DNA from: Agathobaculum sp. Marseille-P7918 | GTDB lineage: Bacteria; Bacillota; Clostridia; Oscillospirales; Butyricicoccaceae | Direction: 5' to 3' | Assembly (NCBI RefSeq): GCF_900625105.1 | Contig: NZ_UYYD01000001.1 | Span: 310,001 to 374,000 of the forward strand | Length of the DNA: 64,000 bases | In this document: positions 46,754 through 57,140 of the stretch, piece by piece | Numbering within the stretch: the stretch's first letter is position 1 | How the letters are laid out: each line of letters begins with the position of its first letter | Translations under genes and position numbers: made by a program | The notes under the pieces: generated by a model | What the model saw: only the letters and a program-made list of their open reading frames with translations | What the model was told of the DNA's origin: nothing | Database searches by the model: none

Positions 46754-47830
46754 ATGCGGCAAACTCAGAACAAAATCCCGCTTTTCCCGTTTTCTTTTCG
46801 GGACTTTTTGATTTTTATCGGCATTTTTGCCTGTGCGGTCGAGCTATGCATCCTGCTGCGCATGGCGGACAGCAGCGATGGCTTCGCCTCCCCGGTGTTC
46901 GTGCTGGCGGTATTGCTGATTTCCCGCTTCACCAACGGCTATCTGTTCGGCACGCTGGCCGCCATTCTCAGCGTGATTGGCATCAACTATATCTTTACTT
47001 ATCCGTATTGGGAATTTAACTTCACGCTTGCCGGCTATCCGCTCACCTTCCTGACCATGCTTGGCGTTTCTCTCATCACCTGCACGATGACCACCAAGAT
47101 CAAACAGCAGGACCGTCTGCGCGCGGAAGGCGAAAAGGAAAAGATGCGGGCCAACCTGCTGCGCTCGGTGTCGCACGATATCCGCACGCCGCTGACCTCG
47201 ATCGTCGGCGCGACCTCCACCCTGCTGGAGACCGACGGCCTGTCAAAAGAAGAGCAGCGTGCCCTGCTGGAAGATGCGCGCGACGAAGCGCAATGGCTGA
47301 TCCGGGTGGTGGAAAACCTGCTTTCCATCACACGCATGGGAGACGCCCGCACGCAGCTGTCCAAAGTTCCGGAAGCGGCTGAAGAAATCCTCGGCGAAGC
47401 GGCACGCAAATTCCGCAAACGCTTTCCGGACATCAAAGTAACGGTGTCCGCACCGGACGAGCTGCTGCTGGTGCCGATGGACGCGATTTTAATCGAGCAG
47501 GTGCTCTCCAACCTGCTGGAAAACGCCGCGACCCACGGGCAGACTGTGACACAGATCCAGCTTTCCGTCCGACAGGAAAACGCATATGCCTGCTTTGCTG
47601 TGCAGGACAACGGCTGCGGCATTCCGCCCAAAGAACTGCCGTTCCTGTTTGACGGCACGCTCAAGCGCAGCGAAACCCCATCCGGCGATGGCAAACGCAA
47701 TATGGGTCTCGGACTTTCGGTCTGTATGGCAATCGTCCGCGCACACGGCGGCACCATGGAAGCAAAAAACCTACCCTGCGGTGCAGAATTCACATTCCGT
47801 TTGCCGCTTTGTGAAAAGGAGTCTCAGTAA
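46754..47830 (+). CDS. KdpD-like sensor histidine kinase without the KdpD/USP sensor domain
   Basis: 358 aa, against about 900 for full KdpD. Residues 15-110 form a DUF4118-type four-span membrane unit, then HisKA with phospho-His141 (SVSHDIRTPLTS) and HATPase (NLLENAATHG; DNGCGIP; MGLGLSVC). The N-terminal KdpD and USP domains are absent. A short KdpD-type kinase is common in gut Clostridia. ATG 46754 follows CTGGAGGA. 2 nt before its response regulator. No kdpFABC in the window. Confidence 0.9.
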   Translation: MRQTQNKIPLFPFSFRDFLIFIGIFACAVELCILLRMADSSDGFASPVFVLAVLLISRFTNGYLFGTLAAILSVIGINYIFTYPYWEFNFTLAGYPLTFLTMLGVSLITCTMTTKIKQQDRLRAEGEKEKMRANLLRSVSHDIRTPLTSIVGATSTLLETDGLSKEEQRALLEDARDEAQWLIRVVENLLSITRMGDARTQLSKVPEAAEEILGEAARKFRKRFPDIKVTVSAPDELLLVPMDAILIEQVLSNLLENAATHGQTVTQIQLSVRQENAYACFAVQDNGCGIPPKELPFLFDGTLKRSETPSGDGKRNMGLGLSVCMAIVRAHGGTMEAKNLPCGAEFTFRLPLCEKESQ

Positions 47831-47832
47831 AC

Positions 47833-48540
47833 ATGAACATTCGCGAAAAAGTCTTGATTGTTGAGGACGAGAAAAGCATTGCGCACTTCATTTCCACCAT
47901 TCTCACCTCCAACGGATACGAAACCATTCAAGCGCGCACCGGTAACGAAGCGATGAGCATGATCTCATCCCACTGTCCTGATCTGGTCATCCTCGACCTC
48001 GGCCTGCCGGATATGGACGGCATGGAAGTGCTCAGCAGCCTGCGCTCGTGGTCCAGCCTGCCGGTCGTGGTGGTGTCCGCGCGCTCGCATGAGCACGACA
48101 AGGTCGCCGCGCTCGACCTTGGCGCGGACGACTATCTGACCAAACCCTTCGGCACCGCAGAACTGCTCGCCCGTGTGCGCACCGCGATCCGCCACACGCG
48201 TACGACCTCCGCCAACGGGGAAATCGCCCAGCGCGGCACCTACACGGTCGGCGAGCTGACGATCGACTACAACAAGCATCAGGTTCTGGTGCGCGGCGAA
48301 AACGTCCACCTGACGCTGAGCGAATTCCGCATTGTCGCCCTGCTCGGCAAGTACGCCGGCAAGGTGCTCACCTATGATTACATCATCAAGGAACTGTGGG
48401 GACCGCGCGCGGGCGGCGACAACCAGATCCTGCGCGTCAATATGGCGAACATCCGCCGCAAGATCGAAAAAAATCCCGCTGAACCGGAATATCTGTTCAC
48501 CGAAGTTGGCGTCGGCTACCGGCTGGCGGAAAACGAATGA
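47833..48540 (+). CDS. KdpE-like OmpR-family response regulator
   Basis: 235 aa. Receiver domain with phospho-acceptor Asp55 (LVILDLGLPDMDG) and Lys in YLTKPFG; winged-helix DNA-binding domain from about 135 (HLTLSEFRIVALLGKYAGKV). Coupled to the kinase upstream. Direct repeats 11 bp apart upstream of the kinase gene are candidate autoregulatory sites. Target genes beyond that are unknown. Confidence 0.92.
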   Translation: MNIREKVLIVEDEKSIAHFISTILTSNGYETIQARTGNEAMSMISSHCPDLVILDLGLPDMDGMEVLSSLRSWSSLPVVVVSARSHEHDKVAALDLGADDYLTKPFGTAELLARVRTAIRHTRTTSANGEIAQRGTYTVGELTIDYNKHQVLVRGENVHLTLSEFRIVALLGKYAGKVLTYDYIIKELWGPRAGGDNQILRVNMANIRRKIEKNPAEPEYLFTEVGVGYRLAENE

Positions 48541-49098: not shown

Positions 49099-50166
49099 TT
49101 ACGGACAGACCGCATATAAATTGGTGTCCCACGCGGGCACATAGGGGTGATGCCGCAGGTACAGCCGGTAATCCGGACAAAGCGTATGGATCAGCAGCGG
49201 CAGCTCGAAAAAGTCCGCGCTCCGATGATAGGCCGCCAGATTGAGCTTGGGACGGCAGCGCCGGATGGTCTGCGCCGCACCTGCGATCGCCTCTCGTTCT
49301 GCGCCCTCGACATCCAATTTCAGATAGGTGCACGGCGTGCCGTCCAGCACGCTGTCCAGCGCACGCATCTGGGTCTCTCTGCCCTGCTTTGCGACCCGCG
49401 ACTGCCGTCCCGCCTGATCGGAAAAACACAGCACCGTGTCGCACGACCACGCGCCCGCCTGCTCGCAGCGCACCGTGCCTGTCAGCGTTTCCGCATAAGC
49501 CGACAGCTTGCGGAAGCTGCGTCGGTCTGGCTCGAGCGCGGTGATCGACGCAAACGCTCCGTCCGTATAGTGCAGCAGCTCGCGGATCGTGTCGCCCGTG
49601 TATGCGCCCAGATCGGCAAAATGCTCCTCTTGTGTCGGGCGCAGAATTGTATGAAACACCTCGTCCTTATCCGTCTCGCTATCCCGAAGATACCGCAGCC
49701 GACCGGACAGCTTAAAGCGCACGGTGTCGAGGAACACCTGCCGCGACTGCTCATCCGCGAGCAGGTCAAACGCCCGCTGCATATCCCCTTCGTGCGCCCG
49801 CACGAACGCCTCGTCAAAGATCGGCCCCGGGACGACCGGGACGTCGGGCGCGACCACGTCAAACCGCGCATCCAGCGCATACATTTTTTCCAGCACCTCG
49901 GGACGCTGGCTGGCAAACGCAATCGCGATCACAATGTCCTCGCCGAACTGTTCGAGCACTTCGGACAGCTTGTGCACCCGAAAACCGTGAAAACTGTGCC
50001 CGCGCACAAATTCATCGCTGGCAAAAACACCCGACGCGCGTATGCCGCATGCGTCAAACTGCGCGAGGATCTTGTCCGCACCATCCCCCATGCCATACAG
50101 CACAATCGGGCGTTTTTCCTCACGCAAAACCTGCCAAACCGACCGTTCCAGCGACAAAAAATCCAT
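49099..50166 (-). CDS. FkbM-type methyltransferase
   Basis: 355 aa. The N-terminal part (about 15-120) has a Rossmann-like start (VLYGMGDGADKILAQFDACG). The C-terminal part is FkbM-like: FADLGAYTGDTIRELL (SAM loop), ITALEPDRRSFRKL, and YLKLDVEGAEREAIAGA. FkbM enzymes O-methylate sugars or polyketides. Start ATG 50166 follows AAGGAG. It is divergent from the repeat-protein/glycosyltransferase unit, which suggests work on a shared glycan, by inference. Confidence 0.88.
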   Translation of the reverse strand: MDFLSLERSVWQVLREEKRPIVLYGMGDGADKILAQFDACGIRASGVFASDEFVRGHSFHGFRVHKLSEVLEQFGEDIVIAIAFASQRPEVLEKMYALDARFDVVAPDVPVVPGPIFDEAFVRAHEGDMQRAFDLLADEQSRQVFLDTVRFKLSGRLRYLRDSETDKDEVFHTILRPTQEEHFADLGAYTGDTIRELLHYTDGAFASITALEPDRRSFRKLSAYAETLTGTVRCEQAGAWSCDTVLCFSDQAGRQSRVAKQGRETQMRALDSVLDGTPCTYLKLDVEGAEREAIAGAAQTIRRCRPKLNLAAYHRSADFFELPLLIHTLCPDYRLYLRHHPYVPAWDTNLYAVCP

Positions 50167-50193
50167 ACTTTTCTCTCCTTTTCCGTGCCTTCC

Positions 50194-50222
50194 ATTATAA
50201 TCGGCACGCGTGCCGCTGTAAA
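50194..50222 (-). promoter_or_regulatory. Promoter of the FkbM gene with palindromic spacer
   Basis: On the - strand TTTACA (50217-50222), 17-bp spacer, TATAAT (50194-50199). The perfect palindrome GGCACGCGTGCC (50203-50214) fills the spacer, a possible operator. Confidence 0.75.
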
Positions 50223-50256
50223 GCGGAAAAAACTTTTTCACGGCGCGATTTTCTCA

Positions 50257-50285
50257 TTGCGGTTTACCCCGCGGTACAGTATAAT
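50257..50285 (+). promoter_or_regulatory. Promoter of the repeat-protein / glycosyltransferase unit
   Basis: TTGCGG (50257-50262), 17-bp spacer, TATAAT (50280-50285), 34 nt before the start codon. Confidence 0.65.
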
Positions 50286-50319
50286 TTGATTAGAAGACAA
50301 ATGCAAAGGGGGCGCGGCC

Positions 50320-50925
50320 ATGTCAAAATCCAACGGTATTCTGGCGATGGATCCAAGCAAATACCGGGAGATCGACGGTGTGGTTTTCGATCTGGACAGC
50401 TATGCCAAGCATTGCGCACCCCCGGAACAGGACGCCCCCGCAGAGGCCGCGCCGACGCCCGCCGAACCCATCCCCGCGCCGGAAGGCATTCTGGCAATGG
50501 ATCCGGATCACTACCGCGCGATTGACGGCGTGGCCATGGACGAGGACAGCTTTGAGCGCCACAGCCAGCCCCCTGCGGACGAAACGCCCGCAGAGCAAGC
50601 CGCAACGGTCGAGGAAGCTCCCCCCATGGGGGTATTCGCAGTCGATCCCTTTCCGAACGGCTGGTATCCCGCCGAGGACGGCAGACCGCCTGTGCCCATC
50701 ATGGGCGGCGCACTGCCGCCGGTCGAGATTCTGGAAAACGGCACACATGTGGTCACGGTGATCCGTACGGTCTTTTTGCACACCGGCTCGGGCTCGGGTT
50801 CGGGCTCGTATGTGACCTCGTACACCACCTCCTACCGCACCAGCTATCTTTCCTCGGGTTCGGGTTCGTATGTGTTCGGCTCGTGCACCTATCTGGTTGG
50901 CGGCTACGGATTGGAGCTGGTCTGA
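50320..50925 (+). CDS. Low-complexity repeat protein (Gly-Ser and Thr-Ser-Tyr rich tail), unknown
   Basis: 201 aa, no known family recognised. Two copies of a 30-residue unit (about 6-35 and 56-85), 19 of 30 identical: GILAMDPxxYRxIDGV, then DxDS and HxxPP. A decayed third copy begins at about 103 (MGVFAVDP). Pro/Ala/Glu-rich linkers separate them. The tail (156-189) is GSGSGSGSY, then repeated TSY units, then SSGSGSY; the end reads YLVGGYGLEL. There is no signal peptide or membrane span, so it is predicted cytoplasmic or exported by an unknown route. ATG follows GGGGGCG. Its stop overlaps the glycosyltransferase start (TGATG). It could be a scaffold or a Ser/Thr/Tyr-modified substrate. Confidence 0.85.
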   Translation: MSKSNGILAMDPSKYREIDGVVFDLDSYAKHCAPPEQDAPAEAAPTPAEPIPAPEGILAMDPDHYRAIDGVAMDEDSFERHSQPPADETPAEQAATVEEAPPMGVFAVDPFPNGWYPAEDGRPPVPIMGGALPPVEILENGTHVVTVIRTVFLHTGSGSGSGSYVTSYTTSYRTSYLSSGSGSYVFGSCTYLVGGYGLELV

Positions 50926-51788
50926 TGCTGCGTGCATTTCACTCCAACTGGACGCGCCCGTTTTTCGCGCGTTCGCCCGATCGTCTCTACGCGGTCGAGC
51001 CGTTCGAACTGCTGACCACCGCGCTGTCCGCGCTCGCGTGGCGGCGGGAAAACGGTCCCATCCGCATGATCTGTGATACCAAGGCCCAGCGGTACTATGA
51101 CGCGCTCGGCCTTACTTTTTTGTGGGATGAAGGCGTGCATCCCCTGCTCGACGCCGTGCCCGAGGACGTAAATCCGATGGCGTTCTGGGCAGCGGGCAAA
51201 TTGTACGCCCTTTCTGCCATGCCGTCCCCCTGCGTGATGATCGACACCGACTTCATCTGCTGGAAGCCGCTCGAACCGCTGCTGCGCGGACTGGACGCGG
51301 CCGCCATCCACCGCGAGGATATCATGCCGGACATCTATCCGGATGCGCGCGCATTTACACGGACGCACGGATTTGACTTTTCCTCCTTTGACTGGACGGT
51401 CCGGCCGTTCAACACCGCACTGTGCTATCTCGCGGACGACGACTTCCGGCGATACTACACGGACACTGCCATCCGCTTTATTCGCTCTTCGCCCGACGCC
51501 GACGACGTGCTAACCTATATGGTCTTTGCCGAGCAGCGCCTGCTCGCCATGTGTGCCGCGCGCAAGCACATCCGTGCCGCCGCGCTGTCCGATTTGGAAG
51601 CGCTGTTCACCGGCGCGCAACAGGGATTTTTCACCCATATCTGGGGCTTCAAGCAGCAAATGCGGGATGAGCCCGCGCTGTACGAAGATTTCTGCCGCCG
51701 CTGCGCCGCACGCCTGCGGCGCGACTTCCCGGACGCTGCCGAGCGCATCGCCGCCGTCCCCACGCTCGCCCCCTATTTTTCTGATTGA
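50925..51788 (+). CDS. Glycosyltransferase-like protein (DUF6734-type)
   Basis: 287 aa. The MLRAFHSNWTRPFF opening, PCVMIDTDFICWKPLEPLL (a DxD-like motif) and the FNTALCYLADDDF segment resemble capsular/GT32-like glycosyltransferase folds and DUF6734. The ending has a helical Arg-rich stretch. I infer that it transfers a sugar, possibly to the repeat protein that it is translated with (1-nt stop/start overlap). Exact family is uncertain without a search. Terminator at 51799. Confidence 0.7.
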   Translation: MLRAFHSNWTRPFFARSPDRLYAVEPFELLTTALSALAWRRENGPIRMICDTKAQRYYDALGLTFLWDEGVHPLLDAVPEDVNPMAFWAAGKLYALSAMPSPCVMIDTDFICWKPLEPLLRGLDAAAIHREDIMPDIYPDARAFTRTHGFDFSSFDWTVRPFNTALCYLADDDFRRYYTDTAIRFIRSSPDADDVLTYMVFAEQRLLAMCAARKHIRAAALSDLEALFTGAQQGFFTHIWGFKQQMRDEPALYEDFCRRCAARLRRDFPDAAERIAAVPTLAPYFSD

Positions 51789-51798
51789 CGCAAAAGCA

Positions 51799-51829
51799 GC
51801 CCGCACCAAGTGGTGCGGGCCGTTTTTTT
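51799..51829. terminator. Terminator between the glycosyltransferase and scrK genes
   Basis: GCCCGCACCA (51799-51808), AG, TGGTGCGGGC (51811-51820), then a T-run on the + strand (51823-51829); weaker T-run on the - strand. Confidence 0.85.
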
Positions 51830-51837
51830 GCAGTGTC

Positions 51838-52800
51838 TCAGTCCGGGTACGCCTGCTTAACTTCGTCCAGCGTGGCCATGACCGCGCCCTTGTGTTGCAC
51901 GGTCAGCGAAGCATACTGCGCGGAAAACCGCAGATAGTCTTCCAGCTGTGCCTGCGGCAGCGCAGACAAATCCGCTGCGCCCACGCCGTCGCGCGTCAGC
52001 TGGTACAGGAACGAGCCGATGAACGAATCGCCCGCGCCGGTCGTATCCGTGACCGGAACGGACAGCGTTTCGGCAAAAGCCTCGGTCTGCGGCGTATAAA
52101 CCGCAGAACCGTTTGCGCCGCGCGTGACCAGCAGCAGCTTGCAGCCGCCTTCAAACAGCTGCTTTGCCGCCGCGCGCTCGTCCGTGCAGCCGGTGACAAA
52201 CTCGACTTCGTCGTCCGACAGCTTGACCAGATCGGCCGACGGCAAAAACGCGCGGATCGCCGCCTGACAATCCGCCGGGTCGTCCCACAGCGGCAGGCGA
52301 ACGTTCGGATCGAATGAAATCAGCGCGCCCGCGTCCCGCGCCAGCTCGATGGCCCGGCGATGTGCCGCCCGGACCGGCCAGTCCACCAGATCGACCGAGC
52401 AGAAATGCAGCGCCGCACAGTCGGTGAACATCTCGGGCCGGATCTGCGTTTCATCCAGGAACAGGTCAGCCGACGGATTTCGGAAAAAGGAAAACTCGCG
52501 GTTGCCGGTCGCATCGAGCGAGACAAAAGCAAGCCCGGTGTTGGCGCGCCCCGTGCGGAACACCGAGGAAATATCCACGCCGTTGCCCTTAAGCACCTTG
52601 AGGATATGCGTACCGAACGCATCCTCGCCCACCTGCGAGATCATCGCCGCGCGGCCGCCCAGACGCGCAACCGCCGCCGCCACATTAGCCGGCGCGCCGC
52701 CCGCGACACGTTCAAAATGCGTCACCTCATCCAGCGCGCAGCCCTTCTGCTGCGGTACAAAATCGATCAGCAGCTCGCCGATCGCCACCACTTTTTTCAT
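51838..52800 (-). CDS. scrK: Fructokinase (PfkB family)
   Basis: 320 aa ribokinase-fold enzyme. AIGELLIDFVP and RVAGGAPANVAAAVARLGG open it, and DTTGAGDSFIGSFLY holds the catalytic Asp. In the sucrose operon it would phosphorylate the fructose freed by ScrB. It is the last gene, with its ATG overlapping the HAD-gene stop by 4 nt. Confidence 0.93.
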   Translation of the reverse strand: MKKVVAIGELLIDFVPQQKGCALDEVTHFERVAGGAPANVAAAVARLGGRAAMISQVGEDAFGTHILKVLKGNGVDISSVFRTGRANTGLAFVSLDATGNREFSFFRNPSADLFLDETQIRPEMFTDCAALHFCSVDLVDWPVRAAHRRAIELARDAGALISFDPNVRLPLWDDPADCQAAIRAFLPSADLVKLSDDEVEFVTGCTDERAAAKQLFEGGCKLLLVTRGANGSAVYTPQTEAFAETLSVPVTDTTGAGDSFIGSFLYQLTRDGVGAADLSALPQAQLEDYLRFSAQYASLTVQHKGAVMATLDEVKQAYPD

Positions 52801-53663
52801 ACCTGTCCCTCCAAAATATACCGTTTGACCGCCGCCGCCACACCGTCCGACGCGTTGTCCAGCGTCACCGCGTCTGCCGCTGCACGGATATGCGGCGCTG
52901 CGTTCGCCATCGCAACGCCCAGCCCTGCCATTTGCAGCATGGTCAGGTCGTTGTCGCTGTCGCCGACCGCCATCACCGCATCCAAACCAAAACCAAGATG
53001 CGCCGCCAGGTGCGCAAGTGCCTTGCCTTTGTGCACGCCCTTGCGGTTGATCTCCACATTTTTCAGTTCCCCACCGAACATCACGGACGGCGCAAGCTCA
53101 AACAGGCCGGTTTGCGCCAGCGCCTGCATCATTTGATCGACCACAGAGGGCTTAAGATGGTGCAGGATCGCCTTGGCCACCCGACCGTCCTCCCGCTCGA
53201 GCACCGCGCGCCACTGCGCCGCATCCGGAACAAATTCGTATCCTTCGGATGTCTCATCGAGGGACACCCGGCCGCGGCGGCGGATCTCCTGCAAAAAGCG
53301 CAAAAACTCGTGCCCGTAATACAGATTTTGGGCTGTATACAGGCACGGGTCCACGCCAAACTGCGCACAGACCTGCAAAACCGTCCGGCACATCGCACGG
53401 TCCAGTCCGTCAAAAGCAATCTGCTCGCCATCCGCCATGCGCAGCACCGCCGCGCCGTTGGCAATGACCACCCAATCCGCGGGCGCATCCAGCTGCGCGT
53501 TGAACGCGCGCACCTCGGTCAGGTTGCGCCCCGTGCACAGGGCGATCTGTACACCCGCCTGCTGCGCCAGACGCACCGCGCGCGCGTTTTCACGCGGCAC
53601 GCGGCTGTCCGGACCGAGCAGTGTCCCGTCCAGGTCAAGTGCGAGCAGTTTGATTTCCGGCAT
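52797..53663 (-). CDS. Cof-type HAD-IIB phosphatase
   Basis: 288 aa. HAD motif I LALDLDGTLLG, motif II in ALCTGRN, and motif III/IV near MAVGDSDNDLTML. Cof-type enzymes dephosphorylate sugar phosphates or nucleotides. It sits between scrB and scrK, so it probably clears excess sugar phosphate. ATG 53663 follows GGATGGAGAA; a long upstream extension is an overlap with scrB. Confidence 0.92.
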   Translation of the reverse strand: MPEIKLLALDLDGTLLGPDSRVPRENARAVRLAQQAGVQIALCTGRNLTEVRAFNAQLDAPADWVVIANGAAVLRMADGEQIAFDGLDRAMCRTVLQVCAQFGVDPCLYTAQNLYYGHEFLRFLQEIRRRGRVSLDETSEGYEFVPDAAQWRAVLEREDGRVAKAILHHLKPSVVDQMMQALAQTGLFELAPSVMFGGELKNVEINRKGVHKGKALAHLAAHLGFGLDAVMAVGDSDNDLTMLQMAGLGVAMANAAPHIRAAADAVTLDNASDGVAAAVKRYILEGQV

Positions 53664-53677
53664 GCTGATTCTCCATC

Positions 53678-55072
53678 CTATTTTTCCGTAATTTGCAGCG
53701 CGCCCATCTCCCAGATCTCGGTCTCCGCACCGAACACGGTCACACCGTGCATATACGGCGCCGGATAATACCGGGTGGACAGCACCTGCTCCCCGCCGTT
53801 GACGAAAATCTCCAGCGAAGACGCATCCGCCAGCACGCGCAGCGTTTGCACGGTGCGCACATCCGCGCAGCGGACCGTGCGGCCCGCGCCGCCGCCGTCG
53901 ATCGTCAGGCGAAGCAATCCTTCGTCCCATTCTATCACGGCACTGCCGCGGATGACAAGTCTGCCCTTGCTCTGGGTGCGGCACACCATATCAAATACGC
54001 GCGCATCCTCGGGCGCAACATGCTTGCCGCGCAGCGCATCGATCTCGGGCGCCGGCATGCGCAGCAGACGGTCGCCGTCGCGCCGCAGCACGCACGGAAC
54101 GGTCATGCAGTGCTGCCAGCCCTGCTCGACCGTCGGATTGGTATACGGTGCATCCGGCATGCCCATCCAACCGAGCAGCAGACGGCGATCACCGTCCACA
54201 AAGGTCTGCGGCGCGTAGAAATCAAAGCCGCTGTCCATCTCCTGAAAGTTGCCCAGCGTATACTCACCACGAAAGTCGCCGTACAGTGGGAAATACCCGC
54301 AGGTATATACGTTCTGAAAACGGTTGCCCTGCTGCTCCACGCCCTGCGGCGAGCACTGCAGGAACCACTGCCCGTCCAGGCAGAACAGATCGGGGCACTC
54401 CCACATATAGCCGAACTTCTCTGGCGTGGTCAAGGTGTTGATGTGTGTCCAGTGCCGTTTGTCCTCCGATTCGTAAACGAGCAGCTCGCCGCGATCCTCT
54501 TTGGTGCGCGCGCCGAGCACCATGTAATACTTGCCGTCCTGCGCCCAGACCTTGGGGTCGCGCACATGGCAGGTCAGATCGGACGGATAGTCCTTGTTTT
54601 CCATCAGCAGCTCGTTGCTTTCGACCGTCACACCGTCACGCGAGACGGCGAGCGCGGTATTATGCCCGCGCCCCGTCGTAATGTAATCGTAATCGCCTGC
54701 GAACTTGACATTGCCGGTGTAATACAGGTACATCGTCCCATCTTCGACCAGCGCCGATCCCGAATACACGCCGTGAATGTCCCACGGCTGATCGGGATAC
54801 AACATGGTCGGCAGCTGCTCCCAGTGCAAAAGGTCGCGGCTGCGATAGTGTCCCCACATCTTGACGCCGCCCGTCGGGTCGAACGGACCGTACTGATAAA
54901 ACACATGATACCACTCGCCGCAGCGGCACAGGCCGTTCGGATCGTTCATCCAGCCGACCGGCGGCATCAGATGAAAATTCTGGCGGAAGGGATCGGCCGC
55001 GGCGCGCGGCCCATCCTCCTGCTCAATGCGGCGCACCAGCCGCACAAGATCCCGTTGTAATGCATTGCTCAT
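53678..55072 (-). CDS. scrB: Sucrose-6-phosphate hydrolase (GH32)
   Basis: 464 aa. GH32 motifs: WMNDPNG with nucleophile Asp44, Arg171-Asp172-Pro in RDPKVW, and Glu225-Cys-Pro-Asp228 (acid/base). A C-terminal beta-sandwich follows. It splits sucrose-6-phosphate from ScrA into glucose-6-phosphate and fructose. 23 nt after scrA. Confidence 0.95.
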   Translation of the reverse strand: MSNALQRDLVRLVRRIEQEDGPRAAADPFRQNFHLMPPVGWMNDPNGLCRCGEWYHVFYQYGPFDPTGGVKMWGHYRSRDLLHWEQLPTMLYPDQPWDIHGVYSGSALVEDGTMYLYYTGNVKFAGDYDYITTGRGHNTALAVSRDGVTVESNELLMENKDYPSDLTCHVRDPKVWAQDGKYYMVLGARTKEDRGELLVYESEDKRHWTHINTLTTPEKFGYMWECPDLFCLDGQWFLQCSPQGVEQQGNRFQNVYTCGYFPLYGDFRGEYTLGNFQEMDSGFDFYAPQTFVDGDRRLLLGWMGMPDAPYTNPTVEQGWQHCMTVPCVLRRDGDRLLRMPAPEIDALRGKHVAPEDARVFDMVCRTQSKGRLVIRGSAVIEWDEGLLRLTIDGGGAGRTVRCADVRTVQTLRVLADASSLEIFVNGGEQVLSTRYYPAPYMHGVTVFGAETEIWEMGALQITEK

Positions 55073-55095
55073 GGCGATTCTCTCCCTATTTCTGC

Positions 55096-56982
55096 TTACT
55101 TGAGCGTCAGAACCGTATCTTTACCTGCCTGAACCGTGCCGAACGACGGCTCGACCGACGCAAACTGATCGGTGTTGGTCACGATGACCGGCGTGATCAC
55201 CGGATAACCGGCCTTCTGGATCTCCGCGCTGTCAAACTCCAGCAGCAGATCGCCCGCCTTGACGTGCTGGCCTTCCTGCACATGGCCGGTAAAATATTTG
55301 CCTTCCAGATTGACCGTATCGACACCCACATGGATGAGCAGTTCCACGCCGTTGTCACATTCCAGACCGACTGCATGGCCCATGACCGCCGACACGGTTG
55401 CGTCGCACGGTGCAATGATGCGGTTTTCCGCGGGCTTAATTGCAACGCCCTTGCCCAGCGCGCCGGACATGAACGCGGGGTCGTTGGTCTCACTGAGCGC
55501 GACCGCTTCGCCGGTCAGCGGGGACACCAGCGCGATGTCACCCTGCGGCGCTGCGACCGCCGGTTTTTCCGGCTGCTCAGGCGCAGCATTCGCTTGGTTT
55601 TTCTCCTCCGGAATGCCGAGAATCCAGGAGATCACAAACGCAACGCCGGTCGCAATACCGATCGTGAGGATGTACTGAATCGGATGATGCAGATGCAGCA
55701 GGATGCCGAAGATGCCGGTAACACCCGTGCCGGTTGCACCCAAACCAACAACCGATGCATACAGCGCGCCGCACGCGCCGCCGATGGACGCGGCGATAAA
55801 CGGCCGGACAAAGCGCAGGTTAACGCCGAAGATGGCAGGTTCCGTAATACCCATGAACGCGGAAAGCGATGCCGGCAGCGCCATGGACTTCAGCTTCTTG
55901 TTCTTGGTTTTAAGCGCGACCGCAAGCGCTGCGCCGCCCTGTGCAACGTTTGCCGCACTGGCCAGCGGCAGCCAGAAGGTCAGGCCGTAAGTGCTGAGCT
56001 GACCGAGGTCAATGATCGTGTACATATGATGGATGCCGGAAACAACGGTCGTGGCATACAGGCCGCCCATAATGAACGAGCCGATGCCGAACGGGATGGC
56101 GATCAGCCACTGCACACCGTTGATGACGAAATTCTCAACCGTGGTGAATACCGGGCCGATCGCGGCAAGCGTCAGATAACCGGTGACGAACACGGAGACG
56201 AGCGGGGTAACGAACAAGTCGAACATCGGCGGCACCACTTTGTGCAGCTTCTTTTCGATGAAGCACATCAGCCAAACCGCGATAATGACCGGGATAACGT
56301 GGCCCTGATAGCCGACCAACGGTACCTTATACAGACCGAAGAACACTTCCTGATAGGTATGTACGCCCTCGGTCGCCACCGTCCATGCGTTTTGCAGATT
56401 GGGGTGCAGCATGATCATACCGATGACCGCACCCAGGAACGGGTTGCCGCCAAACACCTTGGCTGCCGAGAAAGCAATCAGGATCGGCAGGAAGGTGTAC
56501 GCCACATTGGAAAACAGATCGGCAAACACGAACAGCGAACTAGTGCTGTCGAGCGTGATAAAGCCGTTGTTTATCATAAACTTGAGCGACTCCATGATGC
56601 CCATGAGGAAGCCCGATGCCACGATTGCCGGGATAATCGGCACAAAGATATCGCCCAGCGTCTTGATGCCGCGCTGGAACCAGTTGCCCTTCTGCGCCGC
56701 CTGCGCCTTTGCCTCATCCTTGCTGACCGCCGCCGCGCCCGACTGCGCGATGAACTGATCGTATACTTTATTGACCGTACCGGTGCCGAAGATGATTTGC
56801 AGCTGTCCCTGCGCCTCAAATACACCCTGCACGCCCGTCGCATTTTCCAGCGCGTCCTTGTTTACCTTGTTGTTGTCTGCGATCACCAGACGCAGACGTG
56901 TTGCACAATGTGCCGCCGAGATCACATTGTCCTTCCCGCCGATGCAGCTGAGCACCTCGGAAGCCGCTTTTCCGTAGTCCAC
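55096..56982 (-). CDS. scrA: PTS sucrose-specific EIIBCA
   Basis: 628 aa in B-C-A order. EIIB phospho-cysteine Cys26 (ISAAHCATRLRLVI), EIIC of about ten spans (about 105-450), and a C-terminal EIIA with His551 (LLIHVGVDTV). Beta-glucoside PTS proteins have the same layout; the adjacent GH32 and fructokinase genes argue for sucrose. The start is GTG at 56982 or the TTG just before it; GTG is better spaced from AAGGGCGG. Confidence 0.92.
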   Translation of the reverse strand: MDYGKAASEVLSCIGGKDNVISAAHCATRLRLVIADNNKVNKDALENATGVQGVFEAQGQLQIIFGTGTVNKVYDQFIAQSGAAAVSKDEAKAQAAQKGNWFQRGIKTLGDIFVPIIPAIVASGFLMGIMESLKFMINNGFITLDSTSSLFVFADLFSNVAYTFLPILIAFSAAKVFGGNPFLGAVIGMIMLHPNLQNAWTVATEGVHTYQEVFFGLYKVPLVGYQGHVIPVIIAVWLMCFIEKKLHKVVPPMFDLFVTPLVSVFVTGYLTLAAIGPVFTTVENFVINGVQWLIAIPFGIGSFIMGGLYATTVVSGIHHMYTIIDLGQLSTYGLTFWLPLASAANVAQGGAALAVALKTKNKKLKSMALPASLSAFMGITEPAIFGVNLRFVRPFIAASIGGACGALYASVVGLGATGTGVTGIFGILLHLHHPIQYILTIGIATGVAFVISWILGIPEEKNQANAAPEQPEKPAVAAPQGDIALVSPLTGEAVALSETNDPAFMSGALGKGVAIKPAENRIIAPCDATVSAVMGHAVGLECDNGVELLIHVGVDTVNLEGKYFTGHVQEGQHVKAGDLLLEFDSAEIQKAGYPVITPVIVTNTDQFASVEPSFGTVQAGKDTVLTLK

Positions 56983-57010
56983 CAATATTCCGCCCTTTCG
57001 TTTTTATTTT

Positions 57011-57069
57011 ATGAAACCGATTTCATTTTTTCTGCAATCATTATACCGCGAAATCCCTGTTTCTGTAAA
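57011..57069 (-). promoter_or_regulatory. scrA promoter and LacI-type operator
   Basis: On the - strand TTTACA (57064-57069), 18-bp spacer, TATAAT (57040-57045). Just past the start point is ATGAAA-CCGA-TTTCAT (57011-57026), a LacI-family palindrome and probable ScrR site. Confidence 0.8.
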
Positions 57070-57140
57070 TGTGCAATTCTATCCAAACCTTTTCGGCAGT
57101 TTTTGCACACTGTGCAGTAGGCGCTATATAATATACACAA

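Follow-up and report, generated by a model that had tools for sequence, protein, structure and literature searches.

The question raised by this locus is whether a small protein built of repeats and low-complexity sequence is the dedicated substrate of the sugar-transferase-like protein that is translated together with it. The two genes lie in the window, i.e. the whole stretch of 64,000 nucleotides analyzed here, which comes from the 2.83-Mb genome of Agathobaculum sp. Marseille-P7918 (G000 in our numbering), and the first-pass annotation had taken them for a substrate/enzyme pair with a Ser/Thr/Tyr tail as the modified segment. The layout it described holds (Table 1): the stop of the first gene and the ATG of the second share one base (TGATG), and the unit is bounded by a sigma-A-like promoter and a terminator-like hairpin of its own. 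The promoter form TTGnnn-17-TATAnT, matched six times in the 64-kb window on both strands, is found upstream in 28 of 28 family loci (window counted), where the expectation is 0.005 per region. Further downstream, at 51838-57120, lies a sucrose-use-like cluster, in which a PfkB sugar kinase was assigned by family match and inspection by eye suggests a HAD phosphatase together with a GH32-like hydrolase and a PTS permease; on the other side, at 46754-48540, a KdpD/KdpE-like sensor kinase (short, 358 aa) and response regulator are recognizable by eye.

Table 1. Features of the two-gene unit and its immediate surroundings, in window coordinates
Feature	Position	Strand	Remark
FkbM-family methyltransferase gene, divergent	49099..50241	-	family matches and neighbour comparison
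Sigma-A-like promoter TTGCGG-17-TATAAT	50257..50285	+	read from sequence
Ribosome-binding-like purine run, 5' of repeat-protein gene	50305..50312	+	read from sequence
Repeat/tag protein gene	50320..50925	+	201 aa plus stop
Repeat copy 1, GILAMDP..IDGV..H..PP	50335..50424	+	residues 6-35
Repeat copy 2	50485..50574	+	residues 56-85
Conserved middle element VFAVDP..GWY..P.P.MGGALPP	50626..50718	+	residues 103-133; pN/pS 0.14
Low-complexity G/S/T/Y tail, proposed acceptor segment (role inferred)	50782..50901	+	residues 155-194
C-terminal tag GYGLELV, proposed recognition tag	50902..50922	+	tag-ending ORF upstream of transferase in 73/79 loci
DUF6734 transferase gene, predicted protein glycosyltransferase, GT8/GT24-like GT-A fold	50925..51788	+	287 aa
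Intrinsic-terminator-like hairpin, then T7	51800..51829	+	read from sequence

The two near copies of a 30-residue motif that had been noted in the 201-aa protein are identical at 19 of 30 positions, whereas the best self-match among 401 shuffles reaches 11 of 30 (mean 7.9), and the copy number does vary among homologues, which have one or two. What had been read as a decayed third repeat, VFAVDP..GWY, is instead a separate conserved element, retained in relatives with a single repeat (with the exception of g10; genera and families are given here by analysis labels, g and f). The tail indeed contains GS and TSY units but does not consist only of them, as it also holds YVFGSCTYLV, and the chain ends in GYGLELV, which had been overlooked and is the most conserved part of the repeat-protein family. 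The repeat protein is under selection as a protein, with a pN/pS of 0.21 over its full length in 15 genomes (0.15 for the transferase); the repeats stand at 0.13 and 0.12, the linkers at 0.44 and 0.56, and the tail (residues 157-193) at 0.06, the lowest of the parts measured.

The view that this protein has no signal peptide, no membrane span, and no known family is borne out: no 19-residue hydrophobic stretch occurs in it (maximum mean 1.04), Pfam gives no match at E ≤ 1, the single NCBIfam match (E 0.58) is far below the cut-off, and PHROGs has no match for either window protein. Among the 73 partners checked for hydrophobicity, L125 touches the threshold and the N-terminus of L160 is hydrophobic if the first possible start is used. 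Within the window's own genome the repeat protein, the transferase, and the tag pattern each have a single match and thus no paralogue; a second DNA match of 38 bp looks like chance and was set aside.

The transferase passes the gathering score of DUF6734 (PF20508) narrowly, at 27.1 bits against 27.0, and all 37 aligned members of its family match the same entry, for which Pfam describes no function, at E ≤ 0.01. A Pfam match to GT8 was found neither for the window protein (E ≤ 1) nor for the 37 members (E ≤ 0.01). Invariant in the 37 aligned sequences are D107, D109, H238, W240, G241, and K243. The metal-site motifs of GT8 and GT-A enzymes are DxD and H..G.K, and by its sequence the transferase carries both. 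The structure model predicts a GT-A fold of the GT8/GT24 type, with distant structural matches (TM 0.34-0.51 on the query, among the Foldseek matches listed) to enzymes such as glycogenin, LgtC, GlyE, and UGGT, whose identity to the transferase is 6-14% among the matches listed and which, as fold relatives, use very different acceptors. An earlier model, for which 16 close sequences had been used, was of low quality (pLDDT 46.1) and was discarded, and the one match from a sequence-profile search of solved structures (E 0.14) was not accepted as real. Distant homologues of the transferase were also seen on public viral contigs (L177-L185, L207-L216), with 17-25% identity over the alignment and 18-30% over the best segments. 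Residues such as W39, W67, H129, T164-A165, and R205 are invariant among the bacterial sequences but no longer so once the phage homologues are included. They differ from the members discussed here in that no tag-ending reading frame was present among the 1237 ORFs of at least 40 aa in the fetched phage loci (19 short loci, some overlapping).

The two proteins occur together. Of 60 genomes searched by sequence, own genome counted, 27 gave the repeat protein and 28 the transferase; the genome that makes the difference, G033, has a diverged partner. At the level of the order the transferase profile matched 51 of 394 genomes, and at that of the class 22 of 391, with one copy in each; in an even sample of the phylum the only match among 199 genomes was the own genome, and the system is not placed outside Clostridia. 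The union of the positives comprises 79 genomes from 15 genera and 6 families, and a protein with the tag motif is present in all 79, including five in which the genes lie apart. The conserved neighbourhood that the first-pass annotation proposed to look for is evident, with 70 of the 73 tag-ending reading frames found upstream on the same strand in the 79 loci at a distance of no more than 40 bp, and with overlapping starts in 48 of 72 pairs, mostly by 1 or 4 bases (the choice of start codons being crude, and one locus having no start). Likewise, homologues of the repeat protein lacking a transferase neighbour, which would have spoken against a pair, were seen only in the five genomes with separated genes, and each of these has the transferase elsewhere.

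These five genomes belong to g249 (L161, L163, L164, L166, L167, L170-L174): the transferase stands behind mltG-like and O-methyltransferase-like genes with no adjacent partner, and a Ser-rich protein with the tag is encoded elsewhere, ahead of a U32-peptidase-like gene (gene names from reading translations; in G729 a contig end truncates the tag protein, and in G666 it has only 60 aa). Among the three g131 genomes, two have one or two membrane-protein genes inserted between the pair. In G099 the next gene downstream of the transferase encodes an SG/SR-rich stretch and, after it, an internal GYGLGLI. The partners of G356, G394, and G774 reach a contig end, which leaves 46 residues visible in G356 and 16 in G774. 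Neither gene nor the tag was found in G009, a member of the genus with an 81% complete genome, which fits either co-loss or missing sequence.

The order of the genes and their neighbours varies between families, and no gene seen other than the pair itself is constant around it. This applies also to the divergent FkbM gene, which is present as had been described but is no constant companion. It adjoins the pair only in g1, g5, g9, and g12, in 29 of the 30 loci of these genera in a first set of 31 (the exception, L006, begins at a contig end), whereas the remaining locus, L056 of g10, is without it. In a second set it was found in L116-L118 and L120-L122 (g5, g9) and was absent from L119 (g5, a short contig), and none of the fetched g10, f25, f13, f34, f60, or f71 loci has it beside the pair. 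FkbM as a fixed part of the pair, or an FkbM-containing glycan locus, was hence rejected. The N-terminal stretch of the window's FkbM protein weakly matches NeuD/PglB-type acetyltransferases (E 1e-4, below cut-off).

The tag was examined statistically in the 391 class genomes, where the pattern of tag plus stop matched in 22 of 22 transferase-positive and 12 of 369 negative genomes (Fisher p 1e-27, although genomes of the same genus are not independent, so that the sample is effectively closer to 15 genera). The pattern was composed with 15 of the 22 partners already read, and the search profile itself contained three of the 22 transferases (G000, G032, G135); in the seven partners unread beforehand (the five g249 genomes, G097, and G774) the pattern matched without exception. 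The 12 matches in negative genomes are reading frames that do not exceed 58 aa and have no Ser-rich tail; four of them end in TGG, which the pattern tolerates. A control pattern written backwards matched in 11 genomes (counted by hand). One extra match in G500 lies inside another gene and is put down to chance. Over 73 partners the tag reads G (73), Y (72) or F (1), G (73), L (50) or I (23), E (37), H (16), N (12) or D (8), L (63), I (7) or N (3), and I (59) or V (14). These counts are partly set by design and only position five was free, because the search expression fixed both G and allowed Y/F in the second, L/I/M/F/V in the fourth, L/I/V/N in the sixth, and I/L/V in the last position. The single F belongs to G068, a genome listed as 100% complete, whose partner ends in GFGLELI.

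What precedes the tag is far from uniform. The N-terminal parts fall into different sets (DGVVFD..SY..H in f1, CLWxNGxKV in f25, VFxQxELD..LCDNxF in f34, MKLLLMFF in g229, and short ones in g225 and g296), for which Pfam and NCBIfam yield weak matches below cut-off and no usable family. In the f25 loci L097-L112, a region CLWxNGxKV..FD..GYYLGGSL..WL precedes GSF tails and EYEYEYE blocks; in neither of the two proteins that were scanned does it match Pfam, and one of the tails weakly matches the pentapeptide-repeat family. The tails themselves are of the TSY type, the SSGSFR type, GSF with EYEYEYE, or nearly pure SG, as in g229, and g225 is without a repeat tail. Among the 71 partners of at least 60 aa (13 genera; g249 and G099 left out), the 60 residues before the tag contain at least seven Ser, except in g225, with five Ser and four Thr; neither Thr nor Tyr is constant in these tails.

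Taken together, the sequence comparisons strongly support a dedicated pairing of the repeat protein with the transferase, and that part of the first-pass annotation stands; its proposal that the Ser/Thr/Tyr tail is modified is plausible. The two-gene unit suggests a so far undescribed, dedicated protein-glycosylation pair, and we slightly favour the explanation that the repeat protein is the substrate and that its tag directs glycosylation of the adjoining segment. In the proposed model, the protein would combine an N-terminal part that can be exchanged with a low-complexity segment that contains Ser and is probably disordered, and would end in the tag G-Y-G-[LI]-x-[LI]-[IV], which would serve as the docking site for the co-translated DUF6734 transferase. 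The latter, as a putative metal-dependent GT-A enzyme, would move the sugar from a UDP-sugar to the Ser residues of the segment next to the tag, and to Thr if the segment has any. The main argument for recognition of the tag is its constancy against the changing tails and N-termini, which, if recognition lies in the tag, would be free to change between genera. That Ser is present in every tail counted, and that the tail is so strongly constrained within the genus, speaks for the tail as the acceptor, and since no signal-peptide-like or membrane stretch is present in the window protein, the reaction would be expected in the cytosol. Counting against this explanation are the distance of the structural matches, the very different acceptors of the fold relatives, the g225 partner, which has no repeat tail, and the internal motif of G099, by which a free C-terminus is not always required.

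As to what the glycoprotein might serve for, where the first-pass annotation had named a spore coat, a surface layer, or an intracellular scaffold, a spore component (coat or exosporium) like BclA3 with SgtA of C. difficile is compatible with the proposed model but appears unlikely. SpoIVA was matched in all 22 transferase-positive genomes of the class and is above cut-off in 285 of its 391 genomes, which would give 0.73 to the power of 22, i.e. about 0.001 (own arithmetic, before relatedness), and all of 32 chosen positives, 20 of which belong to those 22, matched it as well. Most of the class forms spores in any case, however, and four of the 28 positives among the close relatives show no SpoIVA (drafts, 78-90% complete), which makes the co-occurrence a weak pointer to spores. 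Furthermore, the promoter preceding all 28 loci is sigma-A-like, does not resemble a mother-cell promoter, and points to expression in growing cells.

A different reading of the pair, which we regard as quite improbable, is that the tag protein is a scaffold or partner subunit that positions the transferase, with another glycan or protein as the substrate. Overlapping genes and strict co-occurrence would also fit such a hetero-complex, and N-terminal parts differing by family could be targeting domains, but Ser-rich tails renewed between genera would not be needed, and with no other constant gene around the pair no common alternative substrate is visible. It is more doubtful still that the Tyr of the GYG tag is the acceptor, the partner being a separate protein primer on which a glycan is built, as with glycogenin but split over two polypeptides: the GFGLELI partner of G068 cannot take a sugar at that site, and both the Ser-rich tails kept in nearly all families and the tail as the most constrained stretch within the genus would be left unexplained. 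That the adjacency is operon inertia without a functional link is scarcely credible and was rejected as sole cause, since, although overlapping genes often remain together in related species, the five g249 genomes keep both genes although these lie apart, gene order and neighbours vary by family, and the fetched loci of the phage homologues contain no tag-ending reading frame.

Returning to the tag-directed model, the parts of such a system are of a known kind. The closest case found with biochemistry is the SgtA-BclA3 pair of C. difficile, in which the transferase gene likewise adjoins the gene of its repetitive acceptor and SgtA places beta-O-GlcNAc onto Thr, Ser peptides also being accepted in vitro (PMC7157674). 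BclA3 is an exosporium protein with collagen repeats, whereas the window protein has the C-terminal tag and, like the printed partner sequences when inspected by eye, no collagen-like GXY repeats. In glycogenin the acceptor Tyr is part of the enzyme itself; here the tag Tyr sits in the partner protein. Serine-rich repeat adhesins have a signal peptide and a wall anchor. Those such as PsrP, glycosylated by GlyE and other transferases (one of these transferases has a structure, 5gvv, among the Foldseek matches listed), share with the pair the Ser-rich acceptor and dedicated enzymes; the pair differs in having one transferase, no signal peptide or hydrophobic segment, and GYGLELV in place of the wall anchor, so that the window protein was not classed with them. 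Serglycin-type proteoglycan cores contain (Ser-Gly)n repeats, and the near-pure SG tails of g229 resemble these by analogy, with no homology shown. Among open-licence PubMed Central papers, no literature on DUF6734 or GYGLELI-type tags was found, nor was a tag-defined pairing across unrelated acceptors.

The finding offers a clue to the role of DUF6734, for which no function has been described, and links through one C-terminal tag seemingly unrelated low-complexity proteins with TSY, SSGSFR, GSF/EYEYE, and SG tails. More generally, and more tentatively, Clostridia may possess an undescribed system in which a seven-residue C-terminal tag turns any Ser-rich low-complexity segment attached to it into a substrate for a single GT8-fold enzyme in the cytosol; tag and enzyme would stay, and evolution would be free to swap N-terminal domains and repeat units. 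If true, a tag-directed, tail-independent protein glycosyltransferase would be a simple system of two components, present in common gut bacteria, and the tag could act as a portable glycosylation handle, which would make the pair a candidate tool to put sugars on chosen proteins.
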